From the NCBI RefSeq assembly GCF_030409055.1, contig NZ_CP116619.1:2308628-2372627 (forward strand): a stretch of 64,000 bases of DNA, in the 5' to 3' direction. Positions 3,870 through 44,427 of this stretch are shown piece by piece (position 1 is the stretch's first letter; each line of letters begins with the position of its first letter). The stretch comes from Trichocoleus desertorum NBK24. Its GTDB lineage: Bacteria > Cyanobacteriota > Cyanobacteriia > FACHB-46. A model generated the notes under the pieces. That model was not told the DNA's origin. It saw only the letters and a list, made by a program, of their open reading frames with translations, and did no database searches. Position numbers and translations under genes: made by a program.

Positions 3870-5516
3870 CTACTTAAGACTCACCGCTTTAGGTTTGAGG
3901 GACAAAAGCATCTCGACTTGCGCGGTGGTCTTGTCTGGTTGAGTCACGGTGATACCCAGGCCACGGATCGAGTTCAACATGGCAGTTGCTTCTGGCGTGA
4001 TGGCGCTGGTCTGGGTTTTTAACAAGCTGGTATTCATCACAGCCATAACCTTATCCATGTCGAGATAAAAATAGCCTGCGTTCGGCTTAGCTAGAGAACC
4101 TGTCACCGTTTTGAAGGCGGTGCTTTGGTCTAGAGGCTGTTTGGCGGGAGCAATCATGCCATCAATCAACGGGCTACCCACCGCAATAAAGAGAGAATTT
4201 TGGTTCAGCCAGCCATGACCCAAAACGCTTTCCTGTTGCGGCAACTTCCACTCAGTGATGGTTTTGCCCTGAACGTTCCGCTGGGCCACGCTCATATAGT
4301 TCTTCTGGGCGATCGCATCCAATTTAGTTAAGGTCGCCTCAGCAGTGGCGCGATCGCTGGTTTCTAGGACTAGCACACCGCCAAAGCCAACTGAAGACAG
4401 CACACCTTGATTGAGAGCGATCGCGCCTAGGCCAAACTCGCCATCCATCCAGCCAAACACTTCTTTGTCGGCATCCAGATTTACGGTCTTGAGTTGTTGC
4501 CGTACGGTGTCAACAACTATTTGGCTTTGCGGGACATCTTTCGACTGCTCGACCATTGTGGTCCAGGCAGTCTTTAGCCCTTGTCCTGTTACCAAAGCGA
4601 GGGTTTCGGTGGGAAAGGCGGCGACTACTTTTCCGGGCACTGGTTTGTACTGGACTGCCGTTGCTTGAGGCTTAGCTTTGGCCTTGGCTTTCACCCGTAG
4701 CCCTGATTCATCCACACCCACGCCTACGACCAAAGACTCCACCTGGTCTAACTGCTGCATACTTTGCGGTGGAATTTGGGCCGCTTGAGGGCTATTGGCA
4801 ATCAGTTGCTTGACCGAAGTGCCATAGTTAGGCAAATAAATTTGGGCGATCGGATTTTCTACATCTACGCCTGCTGCCATCAGTTTCGCCGCACCGGATT
4901 TATCGGCAAAGGAAGGCGCACCTTTGAAGGTATCCACAGCCTGTTCGATCGTGGCTTTTTTGTCAGCGAGGACTAGGCGATCGCTAAGAACGGCGCTGTA
5001 AATCGTGCTCTTTGGCTGATCCTTTTGTGTAGTCGCTGAAATTTTAATGCCCTTGTAGTCGCTTTCTTGAGTTTGCACACCAGGTTGGGACTTGGCTTGA
5101 TTGGCAAATGCCAAAGCCCGAACTTTGTCTTTAATACCCACAACCAGCAGGGTATCTGACTGCTGAGCATTACTAGCGGTGCTGGGCATTACTGCCACCA
5201 TGACACTACCCACCCAGGGCTTCAGGTCTTTGTCATAGTTGAGCTGACTACCTTTAAGCATTGAAGCTTGCAAGCTCTGCACGCCTTGACCGATCAGCTT
5301 TTGAGCTTCTGGGGTGCCAAACTGCTCTAGTTGCGACCACCCTTTGGCATCACTCGAAATAAAAGTAGCCATCAGCGCGTCATCGGGCACTACTTCAGCG
5401 CTGGCAGCAGGGCTAGATGAATCAATTGGCCCTCCTTTCAGAAACCAGTAAGCAGCACCCCCAACGACAACCGCGATCGCAGCAACAGGCAATAATACTT
5501 TTTTGAAAGCAGACAT
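3870..5516 (-). CDS. DUF3352 domain-containing membrane-anchored protein
   Basis: The protein has about 548 residues: an N-terminal transmembrane anchor (VLLPVAAIAVVVGGAAYWFL), a Ser/Ala-rich spacer, then a long DUF3352 domain, predicted to sit outside the cytoplasmic membrane. Family landmarks are SQLEQFGTPEAQ, YDKDLKPWVG and WMDGEFGLG. Function is unknown; the family is common in cyanobacteria. A paralogue with the same plan lies at 8608-10380. The start ATG at 5516 has GGAG about 12 bases upstream; a TTG three codons earlier (5525) is possible. The stop codons of this gene and the acyltransferase are directly adjacent (3869/3870), so the two mRNAs converge with no spacer. Confidence 0.8.
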   Translation of the reverse strand: MSAFKKVLLPVAAIAVVVGGAAYWFLKGGPIDSSSPAASAEVVPDDALMATFISSDAKGWSQLEQFGTPEAQKLIGQGVQSLQASMLKGSQLNYDKDLKPWVGSVMVAVMPSTASNAQQSDTLLVVGIKDKVRALAFANQAKSQPGVQTQESDYKGIKISATTQKDQPKSTIYSAVLSDRLVLADKKATIEQAVDTFKGAPSFADKSGAAKLMAAGVDVENPIAQIYLPNYGTSVKQLIANSPQAAQIPPQSMQQLDQVESLVVGVGVDESGLRVKAKAKAKPQATAVQYKPVPGKVVAAFPTETLALVTGQGLKTAWTTMVEQSKDVPQSQIVVDTVRQQLKTVNLDADKEVFGWMDGEFGLGAIALNQGVLSSVGFGGVLVLETSDRATAEATLTKLDAIAQKNYMSVAQRNVQGKTITEWKLPQQESVLGHGWLNQNSLFIAVGSPLIDGMIAPAKQPLDQSTAFKTVTGSLAKPNAGYFYLDMDKVMAVMNTSLLKTQTSAITPEATAMLNSIRGLGITVTQPDKTTAQVEMLLSLKPKAVSLK

Positions 5517-5687
5517 GGGAACCAAGTTCTCCTAGAAGCGTGGGATTTTAAGCACTAATGTGAAACGGGGCTAAACCTAAGACGGGATGAGCGCTGGGCT
5601 TGATAGAGGAAACACAATTTCTCGGCTTGATTCCAGTGTTCCCTGCCACAATGGATTAAAGATTGGGCCTTTCTTTAAGAAATTCTT

Positions 5688-6842
5688 GTGACTAACAACA
5701 GAGTTGAAGCGATTCTGCACCGCGCCTTAGCGGGTGATGATATTTCTCCCGAAGCAGGAGTGACGCTGCTGCAACAGACAGAGCCAGATGCGATCGCAGC
5801 GATCCGAGAAGCGGCAGACCAATTGCGCCAGCAGCAAGCGGGCAACACCGTCACTTATGTGATCAATCGCAATATCAACTTCACGAATATTTGTGAACAG
5901 CATTGTAGTTTTTGCGCTTTTCGTCGGGATGCTGGAGACGAGGGAGCTTATTGGCTGGATAACGCCAAAGTTCTCGAAAAAGCCACAGATGCAGTACAAC
6001 GGGGGGCCACTGAAATTTGTATGCAAGGCGGGCTGAATCTGGAAGCCAAGCTCAATGGCAGTTCCCTAGCCTACTATTGCCAAGTGGTAGAAACGATCAC
6101 TCACCAGTTTCCCCACCTGCACCTCCACGCTTTTTCACCTCAGGAAGTGCAGTTCATCGCGCGGGAAGACAATTTAAGTTACGCCAAAGTGATCGAGGCT
6201 TTACAGACAGCGGGCGTTGGCTCTATGCCAGGAACCGCCGCAGAAGTGTTGGATGACGAGGTGCGTCGCATTCTCTGCCCAGAAAAGACTGATAGTGCAA
6301 CCTGGTTGGAAATCGTGGCGACTGCTCACCGCTTGGGGATGCCCACGACTAGCACCATGCTCTCCGGGCACATCGAAACGCCAGAACAGCAGATCAAGCA
6401 CTTGGATTTGCTGCGATCGCTCCAACAGCAGGCTCAAGATCGAGGCGATCGAGGCATCACTGAGTTTATTTTGTTGCCATTTGTGGGACAGGAAGCTCCG
6501 AAACCATTACGTCGGCGCGTGGGACGTGATCAACCAATCTTGGCTGATGCTCTGCTCCTAATGGCGGTAGCTCGCATCTACTTAGGTCGCTGGATTCCTA
6601 ACCATCAACCTAGTTGGGTCAAGCTCGGCTTGGCAGGTGCAACAGAAGCGCTAACTTGGGGCTGCAACGACATCGGCGGTACCTTGATGGAAGAACACAT
6701 CACCTCGATGGCGGGAGCGCAGGGTGGCACCTGTATGGAAGTTGACACTTTACAAGCTGCGATTAGCTCTCTCGGTCGTCCTTACCAACAGCGAGATACC
6801 TTGTATAACGCGATCGCCACTCCAACTCTAGTGACTTCTTGA
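5688..6842 (+). CDS. cofH: CofH: FO synthase subunit 2 (radical SAM)
   Basis: The 384-residue enzyme joins tyrosine-derived 4-hydroxybenzyl to 5-amino-6-ribitylaminouracil in FO (8-hydroxy-5-deazaflavin) synthesis. In cyanobacteria FO serves as the antenna chromophore of DNA photolyase. The radical SAM cluster motif CEQHCSFC (residues 69-76) is intact, preceded by the CofH-typical NINFTNIC. The C-terminal half carries [12 protein letters not shown] and [15 protein letters not shown], characteristic of CofH rather than MqnC or CofG. Translation starts at a GTG (5688) after an AAGAAATTC stretch. The partner cofG is not in the window. HIP1 sites inside the gene show native composition, in contrast to the following AT-rich island. 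Confidence 0.9.
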
Positions 6843-7002
6843 ACCATCGCTCGAAGCAAGACCCTTTCACTGTATCCCGCTACTTGGTCAAACTGAATCC
6901 TGACTGATGTAGGTAGAAGTTTTCAAAACTGCCGTAACCAATAACTGAAAAAGTCTGACGTTTGCAACCAACCAAATTGGCTGTTTCGGTGCATTGCGGT
7001 TG

Positions 7003-8222
7003 TCAGTCTGTGCCTGAAACAGCATTTCCTTCCAATAAAGCAATAAGAAATTCAACTTTTCCGAACAACTCATCATAAGTAATAATTTGAACATCGTTCA
7101 AACCCGTCCTGAATAGTTCGAATGACTTTTTCTTTTTTTGTTCGATTAACTCATTCTGGATATTACCAATGATAATAATACTTTTAGGGTTAAAAGCCTC
7201 AAATATTTCCTCCTCATAATTTACAAGAGCAACATAATTTTGCAACAAAGATTTTTTGTAATTAGCAACTTGAATTACAGATCCAGACAATTCACTTGAA
7301 ACATTATATACACCGCCTCCATACTGCGAACCTAAAAGTTTTGTTTTAGGTGTTTTTATTTCTATCAGAGCCGTGTTTCTGGTCAAATTATTTGCACATA
7401 GAAAATCAATAATATTCCCACCTTTGTTGCTAATACCTTTTCCACCCAAATAAGCTTTATCTTTAAGAATAGTGACAGGGAATGAAAATAGCTGAGCAAA
7501 GACAAACGAATTCTGTGAAAGAGTTCGCTGCCAAAATTCTTCATCGTCATTCTCTTGATTTGCTTGTCAGATTGAAAGAATACTCTTTAGGTTGCTTAGC
7601 TCGACTGCTACGTTTAACTTTTGCAAGTCATCAAATTCAAGATTTTCTAATACAGTAATAACATCCTCTACCTTTGATATGTTTGTGAGCCAGTTCACTA
7701 ACCTAGATATAATGTCAATCCCTGCTTTTTGGCTGATGTCTAAAAACTGACGAAGTAGGTCTTCATAAATTATTGGTTCGATGTCTTCTTGAATAAAAAA
7801 TCTATCAGTCTAGAGATAGAACCGACTTCCACTTTTTTGTCTAGCTTTAGAAACTCTTTTATTGCATCATCGGTAGATTCAGTAATACTTTTAGTCGTTT
7901 CTAACAACTCTAGCTGTTCTACAATTTTGCTAGGTTCTTGTGAAAAAGGCGTTACACGTGGCATCGCCTTAAAATTTTTTCTAATTCTTCTCAAAGTAGA
8001 TACAGACATTCCGAAAGCTTTTGCAGCTTCCTCTAAATTGGCATACTTCTGAAGTAATGTATCAAGCTCATAAACAGCCCTTTCCTGCCCAACTACATTT
8101 GCCCACCTTTCTAAAGAACGAATTCTATGGGGTGCACCAAACTGTATCCCACCAGGATATGCTTTCCACGCTGCTTGCAAAGTATCTATAAATGTCCATT
8201 GAGGATCAATGATGATGCTCAT
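7003..8222 (-). pseudogene. sduA: Broken Shedu (SduA, DUF4263) anti-phage nuclease gene with N-terminal HTH region
   Basis: Two open fragments on the minus strand, 8222-7770 and 7566-7003, join into one Shedu-like protein of about 406 residues if two lesions are repaired. Lesion 1 is a frameshift at a run of six T's (plus strand A's at 7795-7800): the upstream frame ends as SRLIDFLFKK, while the next frame continues FFIQEDIEPII; one extra T restores SRLIDFFIQED. Lesion 2 is an in-frame TGA at 7567-7569, just before QANQENDDEEFWQ, where a TGG (Trp) would be one change away. The C-terminal half has Shedu landmarks: EEFWQ, KAYLGGKGISNKGG, the nuclease-like IIDF and IEIKTP (Asp...Glu-x-Lys), and SGSVIQVANYK. 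The N-terminal part contains a helix-turn-helix-like EEAAKAFGMSVSTLRRI. The block is AT-rich, has no HIP1 site, and looks acquired. Shedu is a known single-gene phage defence; this copy is probably inactive, unless the lesions are sequencing errors. Confidence 0.8.
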
Positions 8223-8607
8223 AAACTCTGATTTGCAGTGGTTATATACAATAGCCTAAACATTCAGACTTCAACATACCAGGCTTCAGTCAACTCCTCA
8301 GAGACAATTTAGAAGGCTAACTATTAATAGAAGATTTCTGCATGACATGCTTGTAATAGAGATTAGATAAAAACTTTCTGTATAACAGCCCAAATGGAAT
8401 AGATAGCGGAATTTTTCCGCAATACACGCTGCTTTAGGTAAATAGCCTAAATCTTTTCACTTTCGGTAGAGACCAGTGCAAAGCCAAGCAATAACTACTC
8501 GATTTCTCCTGGGTAGCTATCCGGATTTAGCAAGCCACAGGCCGATAATACTTTGCTAGAGTGTCAACGGCGTTGCGTATTCTGTCTGGCTAAGAGAGCT
8601 TGGGGTC
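8223..8607. other. Intergenic region between the Shedu remnant and the DUF3352 gene
   Basis: No gene was found. It is AT-rich in its first two thirds, continuous in composition with the Shedu remnant. It holds a perfect small hairpin (GCGGAA-TTT-TTCCGC, 8406-8420), and TTTAGG/CCTAAA arms near 8433-8451. The decamer ATAGCCTAAA occurs twice (8251-8260 and 8442-8451). The promoter of the DUF3352 gene should lie in the last 150 bases. Confidence 0.5.
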
Positions 8608-10380
8608 ATGATCGAGAAGAAAAATAAGGTTGCTCTACCACTCGCGCTAGGAGCAGCAGGCTTACTGATTGCAGGGGGGGCGGCGACCTACTGGTTTATC
8701 ACTCAGAGAAACACTGGGTCAGGGGATGTACCTGTGGGAGCCAATATTATCCCGCAAACAGCGCTCATGGCGGTTTCTGTCTCCACCGATTCAAATCAGT
8801 GGCAAACCCTCAGACAATTTGGCACGCCAGAAACTCAAGCCTTAGTAGACCAAAACTTAGCTCAATGGCGCGATCGCCTGTTAACTGCCAACGGCTATAA
8901 CTACCAAAAAGATATTCAACCTTGGGTTGGTAAACAAGCCACCTTCGCCTTCCTACCTTCCCAAACTCCGCCTCCTGCCAATCCTACGCCAAACAACCCT
9001 ACGCCAAGCCTCCCTTCTCCGACTCCAGGTAGGCAACAATCGGTGGTGTTGGTGCTGCCTATTACCAATCCGGGGCAAGCCCAGCAAGCTCTCTCTCAGC
9101 CCAAAACTGGCGTAGCGACCAAGTGGACTCAGCGAGAATACAAAGGCGTTCAGATTCGAGAAACCCAAGGCGCACCGACTCAAAATTACTCTGCTACCGT
9201 TCTGGATGGGCGCTTCTTGGTCGTGACCACTGACCCGAAAATTACCGATCAAGCGATCGACACCTATAAAGGAGGAGCTTCTCTCCTTACCGCTCCTGGC
9301 TATAGCGCTGCATTCAGCAAGGTCGGCAGCAATCAAGCTTTTGCTAACTTATATGTCAATGTGCCAGCCGCTGCTGCTGTGGCTTCCACCAGTTCAGCCG
9401 TTCCGGTCGCACCCGAAAGCCTCACCCAGCAGATTCAAGGTTTAACCGCTACTTTTAACTTGCAGCCTCAAGGTGTTCTGGTTCGGAGTGTTTCTTGGCT
9501 AAAGCCAGATAGCAAGAAAAAGTATACGGTTACGAATGCAGCCAAAAGTATGACTAGCCGCTTACCCGCAGAAACCTTGGTTATGGCATCTGGTGGCAAT
9601 CTCAAGAATCTCTGGGAGCAGTACATTCAAGGAGCTACCACCGCTACGTCTCCTAACCTGACCAATCCTCAAGTTTTACGGGAAGGACTGCAAACTCAGA
9701 CAGGTTTAGACCTAGACAAAGATTTGCTGAAGTGGATGGATGGGGAGTTTTCGCTGGCTTTAATTTCCAACCCACAGAAAGCACCGACAGATTTACCCGC
9801 TGGCCTGATGTTTATGGTGCAAGCGAGCGATCGCCGAGCCGCCGAAAAAGCCTTCAAGCAACTGGATGAGGTGATGGCGAAGCGCTACAACTTCAAAGTC
9901 AATGAAGTTAAGGTTGGCAATCAATCCACGATTACTTGGGCACCCGCACTTGGAGGCGCGATCGCCAGTCACGGCTGGTTGGATAGTAACGTCGCCTTTT
10001 TAAGCGTGGGTGCGCCTGTCGCCAGCAACATTATCCCCAAACCTCTCACTCCTTTAGCTGCCAGTGAACTATTCCAAGCGACGGTGCCAACGGAGCTAAA
10101 ACCTAACAATGGGCATTTCTTTATTGATGTCGATCGCACCTTAAGCAGCAACTTAGCTTTGATTAGACTGGCCCCCAGCAGCCAAGTTTGGGCAAAGGCG
10201 ATTCAGTCGATCGGGGTAACGGGAGCAATCAGCGACGAGCGAACCACTCGCTACGATGTGTTTGTGCGCTTGCGTCAGGGTAACAAGCCAGGCGCATTAC
10301 CTAGTGCTTCCAGCAATCCTGGTGCAACTCCTAGCCCCACCTTGTCTCCTTCTCCTACGCCATCTCAGGATTCTAGGTGA
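8608..10380 (+). CDS. DUF3352 domain-containing membrane-anchored protein (second paralogue)
   Basis: A 590-residue protein with an N-terminal transmembrane anchor (ALPLALGAAGLLIAGGAATYW), a DUF3352 domain and a Pro/Ser/Thr-rich C-terminal tail (residues about 565-590). It has an inserted Pro/Asn-rich loop near residues 117-140. It shares QFGTPETQ, YQKDIQPWVG and LKWMDGEFSLAL with the minus-strand paralogue at 3870-5516. Function is unknown and the location is probably extracytoplasmic. Start ATG 8608 follows a GAGAG-like site. ccsA begins 82 bases downstream on the same strand, so the two may share a transcript. Confidence 0.8.
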   Translation: MIEKKNKVALPLALGAAGLLIAGGAATYWFITQRNTGSGDVPVGANIIPQTALMAVSVSTDSNQWQTLRQFGTPETQALVDQNLAQWRDRLLTANGYNYQKDIQPWVGKQATFAFLPSQTPPPANPTPNNPTPSLPSPTPGRQQSVVLVLPITNPGQAQQALSQPKTGVATKWTQREYKGVQIRETQGAPTQNYSATVLDGRFLVVTTDPKITDQAIDTYKGGASLLTAPGYSAAFSKVGSNQAFANLYVNVPAAAAVASTSSAVPVAPESLTQQIQGLTATFNLQPQGVLVRSVSWLKPDSKKKYTVTNAAKSMTSRLPAETLVMASGGNLKNLWEQYIQGATTATSPNLTNPQVLREGLQTQTGLDLDKDLLKWMDGEFSLALISNPQKAPTDLPAGLMFMVQASDRRAAEKAFKQLDEVMAKRYNFKVNEVKVGNQSTITWAPALGGAIASHGWLDSNVAFLSVGAPVASNIIPKPLTPLAASELFQATVPTELKPNNGHFFIDVDRTLSSNLALIRLAPSSQVWAKAIQSIGVTGAISDERTTRYDVFVRLRQGNKPGALPSASSNPGATPSPTLSPSPTPSQDSR

Positions 10381-43136: not shown

Positions 43137-44427
43137 TAGACTTTGGCGAGAATAGAGCTACTATTTAGGCAGGATTGATATGGGAATACAACGATGCCTA
43201 GACTAGCTCCCACACCTTTGCAACTGACAGAGACAGAGACAGAGCAACTCCAACAGCTAGTCAATCGCCATCGCACTCCCCAGCAAATTGCCTTAAGAGC
43301 CAGCATTCTTCTGCTAGCAGACAAAGGACTTAACCATCGGGACATCGCTCGTGAACTGAACATCAGCCGAGACATGGCAAGGCTGTGGCGTAATCGATGG
43401 TTAGAGTTGAGCCTGAAGGACATGCCAGTGGTAGAGCGATTAAGAGATGCCCCTCGTCCGGGAGGACCAATGAGCTTCAGCTTGGGGCAGATTGTGCAGC
43501 TGTTTGCGATTGCTTGTGAGAAGCCTGAAGAGTATGGACACCCCATCAGTCATTGGACTCCCCGAGAGTTGGCTGATGAAGTGGTCAAACAAGGAATTGT
43601 TAAGAGCATCTCCCCGCGACATGTGGGCCGCTTGATGAATGAAGCAGATTTGAAACCTCATCAGTCGCAGTACTGGTTGAATCCCCCCCCGACCCTCAAT
43701 TCGACGAAAAGGTCAAAGACATCTGTGCGATTTACCTGAGTGCAATTGAGCGAAGCAAGGTGGGAGAACGGACGGTTTCTCTCGATGAGATGACAGGAAT
43801 TCAAGCTCTCGAACGAAAGTCTGCTGACCAACCGATACGTCCTGGCAAACGAGAACGACGAGAATTTGAGTATATTCGCCACGGAACTCAAACCTTAATT
43901 GCCAGTTTTGACGTAGCACAAGGTCGAGTCGTCGAAGCAACCGTTGGCGACACTCGCACAGAGGCAGACTACCTCAGCCACCTCCAACAGTTAGTTGCGA
44001 CCGACCCGAAGGCGATCAAATGGCACTTGGTGATGGATTGCTTGAACATTCATCAGTCAGAATCATTAGTTCGATTTGTGGCACAAACCCAAGGGCTTGA
44101 GATCGACCTGGGAGTCAAAGGGGAATCGGGTATCCTCAAATCGATGCAAACTCGGGCTGATTTCTTGGCTGACCCCAGCCACAAAATTGTGTTCCACTTC
44201 ACTCCTAAGCACTGTTCCTGGCTCAATCAGATTGAGGTCTGGTTCAGTATCTTGGTTCGTAAGTTACTCAGGCGAGGCAATTTCGTGAGTAAAGTGCAAC
44301 TCAAAACCCGCATCCTCCGATTCGTTGATTACTTCAATCGCACGATGGCTAAACCCTTCAAATGGACTTACCAAGGCAAAGCATTAAAGCAATGACAAAA
44401 GGTAGGTGAATTCATGCCCTATTCTAC
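43136..44427 (+). mobile_element. IS630-family insertion sequence (1292 bp)
   Basis: The element is flanked by TA on both sides (43134-43135 and 44428-44429), the standard IS630 target duplication. Its ends are imperfect inverted repeats: left GTAGACTTTGGCGAGAAT against the reverse complement of the right end, GTAGAATAGGGCATGAAT, matching at 13 of 18 positions. It encodes one transposase in two frames. It has no HIP1 site. It sits in the stop codon of the FAD oxidoreductase. Confidence 0.85.
43194..44395 (+). CDS. IS630-family transposase, two frames joined by -1 shift
   Basis: The first frame (43194-43739) encodes the helix-turn-helix DNA-binding part ([20 protein letters not shown]) and the linker ending [10 protein letters not shown]. 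The second frame runs through to 44395 and carries the DDE catalytic domain: Asp in VSLDEMTG, Asp in [10 protein letters not shown] and Glu in WLNQIEVWF. The frames meet at a run of eight C's (43683-43690); a -1 shift there continues [17 protein letters not shown] and gives about 400 residues. The shift may be programmed slippage on CCC-CCG or a one-base loss. The catalytic triad is complete, so the element may be active if the shift occurs. Confidence 0.82.

Follow-up and report, generated by a model that had tools for sequence, protein, structure and literature searches.

Does the minus-strand locus lying between cofH and a DUF3352 gene in Trichocoleus desertorum NBK24 encode a working Shedu defence protein or the remains of one, and in the latter case how and when was the gene lost? 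The window analysed here is the whole stretch of 64,000 nucleotides that contains this locus. An earlier, sequence-only reading had joined two fragments and an unannotated middle into a single Shedu-like protein of 406 residues, and translation of the minus strand in three frames bears this out. Three open pieces are obtained in two frames (8222-7800, 7797-7570 and 7566-7003), measuring 141, 76 and 187 residues, and one X at each of the two breaks brings the length to 406. The first frame is open from an ATG at 8222 to 7800 and runs on to a stop at about 7770. The second extends from 7800/7797 to a TGA at 7569-7567; beyond this stop it is open again from 7566, up to the terminal TGA at 7005-7003. 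The break of frame takes place after residue 141, inside the T run 7800-7795. The features of the locus are listed below with the evidence for each; L004, L034 and L037 are related loci described further on.

7003..8222, minus strand: Shedu (SduA) pseudogene, 406 codons in pieces (frame translation, profile matches, colinear intact ortholog L034:1501-2730)
7800..8222, minus strand: piece 1, N-terminal domain, helix-turn-helix-like (sub-threshold Pfam HTH_23 and HTH_28 matches, helices of the ortholog model, relatives L004, L034 and L037)
7795..7800, minus strand: run of six T, site of the frame break (relatives pass through in one frame)
7570..7797, minus strand: piece 2, middle helical region in the shifted frame (PADLOC SduA 4.2e-9; dN/dS 0.18 against L004)
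7567..7569, minus strand: premature TGA at codon 219 (Trp in L004, L034 and 10 of 13 relatives)
7003..7566, minus strand: piece 3, PD-(D/E)XK nuclease domain, SduA_C (Pfam 7.4e-28; PADLOC 5.9e-75)
7405..7407, minus strand: conserved nuclease Asp (IIDF), kept (alignment)
7354..7362, minus strand: conserved E-x-K (IEIKTP), kept (alignments)
7318..7320, minus strand: GGA (Gly), residue 302, Arg in 13 of 13 relatives (alignment of relatives)

A search of pieces of the repaired protein against DUF4263/SduA profiles returned strong matches and confirmed the proposed Shedu identity. Piece 3 matches Pfam SduA_C (PF14082) at 7.4e-28, the score being 98.1 bits where the cut-off is 27 and the match starting 7 residues after the TGA. 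With the PADLOC SduA models it reaches 5.9e-75, and the middle piece, taken by itself in the shifted frame, gives a PADLOC SduA match at 4.2e-9. A read-through query is matched by sequence to Bacillus cereus SduA (8ti8) at 7.6e-48 over residues 154-399. The nuclease residues that had been proposed as retained are indeed present, the Asp of IIDF and the E-x-K of IEIKTP being aligned with 8ti8 and with other Shedu relatives; the E of E-x-K is an Ala in the PDB 8ti9 construct. The predicted structure (AlphaFold) of the intact ortholog, of moderate quality only with a mean pLDDT of 65, displays a nuclease domain comparable to that of B. cereus SduA (8ti8, 8ti9) with a Z of 20.9 over 192 residues and to that of Escherichia coli SduA (PDB 8ps4, 8ps5) with a Z of 13.6. 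The B. cereus protein thus shares the C-terminal nuclease domain with its IIDF/LVDF and IEIKTP motifs, but its N-terminal segment of about 150 residues has no sequence match to the window protein, and the window copy is broken. In E. coli, too, the system consists of SduA alone, which carries a specificity domain at its N-terminus (PMC12904381), although the aligned domain is only 22% identical and the N-terminal part is without a match. The locus therefore possesses the C-terminal SduA_C/DUF4263 nuclease domain, the PD-(D/E)XK residues and the single-protein layout in which the regulatory domain at the N-terminus is variable, this last point being established on the ortholog, where one ORF of 409 aa includes the N-terminal domain. 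An intact coding sequence is absent: in view of the frame break at 7795-7800 and the TGA at 7567-7569, the locus is a Shedu pseudogene and not a working system.

The nature of these lesions is best appreciated from the relatives. A pair-profile search of cyanobacterial genomes identified an intact ortholog of 409 aa, L034:1501-2730, in G608, a single-contig genome of 7.9 Mb. This ortholog is full-length, begins at the same ATG and stays colinear with the window gene through to its end; it is about 67% identical and carries the same N-terminal domain. It differs in that its ORF is intact and its neighbours are toxin-antitoxin genes (BrnT and ParE/Phd); it presumably sits between pyrC-like and htpG-like genes. 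A second copy, L004:3007-4169, from the Symploca sp. SIO2E9 MAG, is 70% identical, shares the same N-terminal domain and is also a pseudogene. Its damage is different, consisting of a TAG at codon 19 and of a TAA and a frame break near 3955-3980, and its middle region is 17 residues shorter, in frame. As the lesions of the two copies differ, they must have decayed independently. An intact copy was not found in any strain of the window's species.

Both relatives cross the position of the T run without a break of frame, and a Trp stands at the position of the window's TGA in both of them, in B. cereus SduA and in 10 of the 13 relatives overall. The internal TGA is taken as a stop because the gene's own terminal stop is a TGA in the same TGACAA context. 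The frameshift at 7795-7800 and the TGA at 7567-7569 had thus been correctly placed and described, and a third change can now be added to them: residue 302 is Gly in the window and Arg in all 13 relatives compared, the direction of this change being deduced from proteins that are at most 70% identical.

Such lesions could be artefacts of sequencing or assembly, the gene being really intact. A one-base change in the length of a homopolymer is a common type of long-read error, and the lesion in the T run fits this description. The TGA, however, is a substitution and not a change of run length, and residue 302 is altered as well, so that at least two independent errors within 1.2 kb would be required; an assembly error confined to 7795-7800 would leave both the TGA and the Gly codon unexplained. 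The window was also compared to the sister species G002, to which about 59 kb can be aligned at about 87-93% identity. Only five frame-changing indels were found in this alignment within or close to ORFs of 120 aa or longer, and none of the five is located in a run of 5 bases or more. Judged on the assembled sequence, sequencing error would be an unlikely cause of the lesions, and an intact gene behind them is very improbable.

The sequence-only reading had also proposed a reversible off state, in which a phase-variable gene would toggle between two lengths of the T run and be observed here in its off form. The frame break does fall within a T run, but the TGA, located 226 bases downstream of it, and Gly302 persist at any run length, and a change of tract length alone would not restore the protein. 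Six or seven T make a short run, and the window has many of this kind: 29 of T and 14 of A reach six bases or more (35 of length six and 8 of length seven). The tract is absent from the G608 ortholog and shorter in the Symploca copy, hence not a conserved switch, and the nearest relative is broken by other lesions. With a stop codon and an Arg-to-Gly change outside a run that is not conserved, the reversible state is not supported and its probability is minimal.

Recoding would provide another way to obtain a little full-length Shedu protein, through -1 slippage at the heptamer T TTT TTA followed by read-through of the TGA. The TTTTTTA sequence is indeed in the correct phase for -1 slippage, and the internal TGA precedes a C, a context in which termination at TGA is leaky. 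This heptamer would nevertheless arise automatically once a longer T run preceding an A had lost one base. Among the elements of programmed -1 frameshifting (heptamer, structure and conservation), the heptamer alone is present: a stable downstream structure is absent (z 0.33) and the heptamer is missing from both the Symploca and the G608 genes. Recoding would also leave Arg302 lost, and the gene itself ends in the same TGACAA. It is consequently considered extremely improbable. Equally little probability is given to a split but functional gene, in which translation would start anew on the C-terminal fragment and give a nuclease on its own. An ORF of 148 aa starting from a TTG at 7449 does retain the Asp and E-x-K residues, yet it lacks the stretch of about 39 residues from the TGA to 7449, and with it the conserved WQ helix that starts SduA_C, as well as the entire N-terminal half and Arg302. 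No promoter-like excess was observed for this ORF, and a promoter and terminator scan gave nothing above shuffled sequences.

The locus is very probably a Shedu gene that was acquired horizontally and inactivated only recently. Its age was addressed by comparison of substitution patterns in the window, Symploca and G608 copies. Pairwise dN/dS values are 0.13 for window-Symploca and 0.12 for window-G608, both covering the shifted frame too, and 0.16 for Symploca-G608; the middle piece in its shifted frame gives 0.18 against the Symploca copy. Unique replacements amount to 38 in the window and 36 in Symploca, as compared to 47 in the intact G608 gene, and neither an excess of replacements nor a relaxation is visible on the window's branch. 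According to these ratios and counts, nearly all the divergence arose while purifying selection still acted, which makes the inactivation a recent event. The proposed recent loss of a phage-defence gene is accordingly supported by the profile matches, the intact colinear ortholog, dN/dS values of about 0.12-0.13 and the absence of a replacement excess.

The genomic setting of the pseudogene was defined by comparison with two sister species, G001 and G002, and comprises the following elements.

6847..8334, no strand: variable islet of about 1.5 kb, with other cargo in G001 and G002 (comparison with the sisters)
5688..6842, plus strand: cofH, conserved left flank (NCBIfam CofH 2.7e-162)
8608..10380, plus strand: DUF3352 gene, conserved right flank (Pfam 7.1e-167)

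Sequence that the window shares with the sisters runs out at 6846, four bases past the stop codon of cofH, and begins again at 8335 in G001 and at 8447 in G002, ahead of the DUF3352 gene. The pseudogene has a GC content of 35% versus 49% for the window. In G002 the same slot holds a gene for a PIN/VapC-like toxin and other short ORFs, and in G001 an ORF of 245 aa without known family and short ORFs. The unassigned ORFs of both slots have no Pfam match, PADLOC returned only a weak Csx1 match to one of the slot ORFs (3e-3), and no match to the nuclease piece was found in the G001 and G002 genomes or in IMG/VR. This is the usual pattern of a defence or toxin-antitoxin islet with rapid turnover. 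Across the three congeneric species (window 6847-8334, L027 and L028) the interval forms a small turnover hotspot, its main cargo ORFs lying on the minus strand in each. Two divergently oriented DUF3352 paralogues (3870-5525 and 8608-10380) flank cofH and the variable slot. Elsewhere in the window, a segment that does not align to G002 carries a transposase in two ORFs (an HTH part and a DDE_3 part, 43194-44395), which we take to be IS630-like; its division into two ORFs may represent a normal layout or decay.

The N-terminal domain deserves separate attention. Piece 1 matches Pfam HTH_23 and HTH_28 below the cut-off, and residues 1-90 of the ortholog model are all helical with pLDDT values of 70-88. 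A profile of the domain gave no convincing match in the PDB (best 0.025), and structure comparison of the N-terminal region, performed on the ortholog model and not on the domain folded alone, gave a best Z of 4.5, which is at background level. The domain, residues 1-97, was found in four proteins only: those of the window, L004 and L034, which are its only carriers among the Shedu proteins found, and that of L037:1501-2298 (G434). In the latter it is fused to SLFN_AlbA_2 (5e-17), next to a D12-class adenine methylase and a PDDEXK_11 nuclease. No relative of the domain was detected in IMG/VR or in the PLSDB plasmids, nor in 386 genomes of the phylum other than its own genome. It is conceivable, but somewhat doubtful, that this HTH-like domain of about 100 residues is an undescribed transferable sensor, which may read the same phage signal on behalf of different effectors (Shedu on the one hand, Schlafen/AlbA_2 on the other).

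In E. coli SduA, binding of a DNA end through an N-terminal clamp activates the C-terminal PD-(D/E)XK nuclease, which cuts near the end (Loeff et al. 2025, reviewed in PMC12904381), and N-terminal domains differ among Shedu proteins (PMC12137116). By analogy with the E. coli enzyme, the ancestral gene would have encoded one protein composed of an N-terminal helical HTH-like domain, a helical middle and a C-terminal PD-(D/E)XK nuclease, the HTH-like domain putatively acting in a sensing or clamp role and the nuclease probably cutting DNA after the sensing of DNA ends. From the reading frames it is predicted that ribosomes passing the break in the T run would reach a stop within ten codons and yield a protein of about 150 residues without nuclease. 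The TGA at codon 219 would in any case bar a functional enzyme with certainty, and Gly302 presumably does so as well. The slot between cofH and the DUF3352 gene changes its contents from one species to another.

The family is a known one, the remnant is a pseudogene of the ordinary kind, and its history is one of ordinary defence-gene loss. As pointed out by the PADLOC authors, a large number of putative defence genes bear a pseudogene annotation and may be what is left of inactivated systems; such pseudogenes are common, and default annotation misses them (PMC9252829). Since this commonness is already known, the present case adds an instance and not a principle. It is nevertheless a clean case of defence-gene turnover, in which a single Shedu lineage is represented by one intact copy and by two copies with different lesions, and its rare N-terminal domain offers a modest lead on Shedu sensing.
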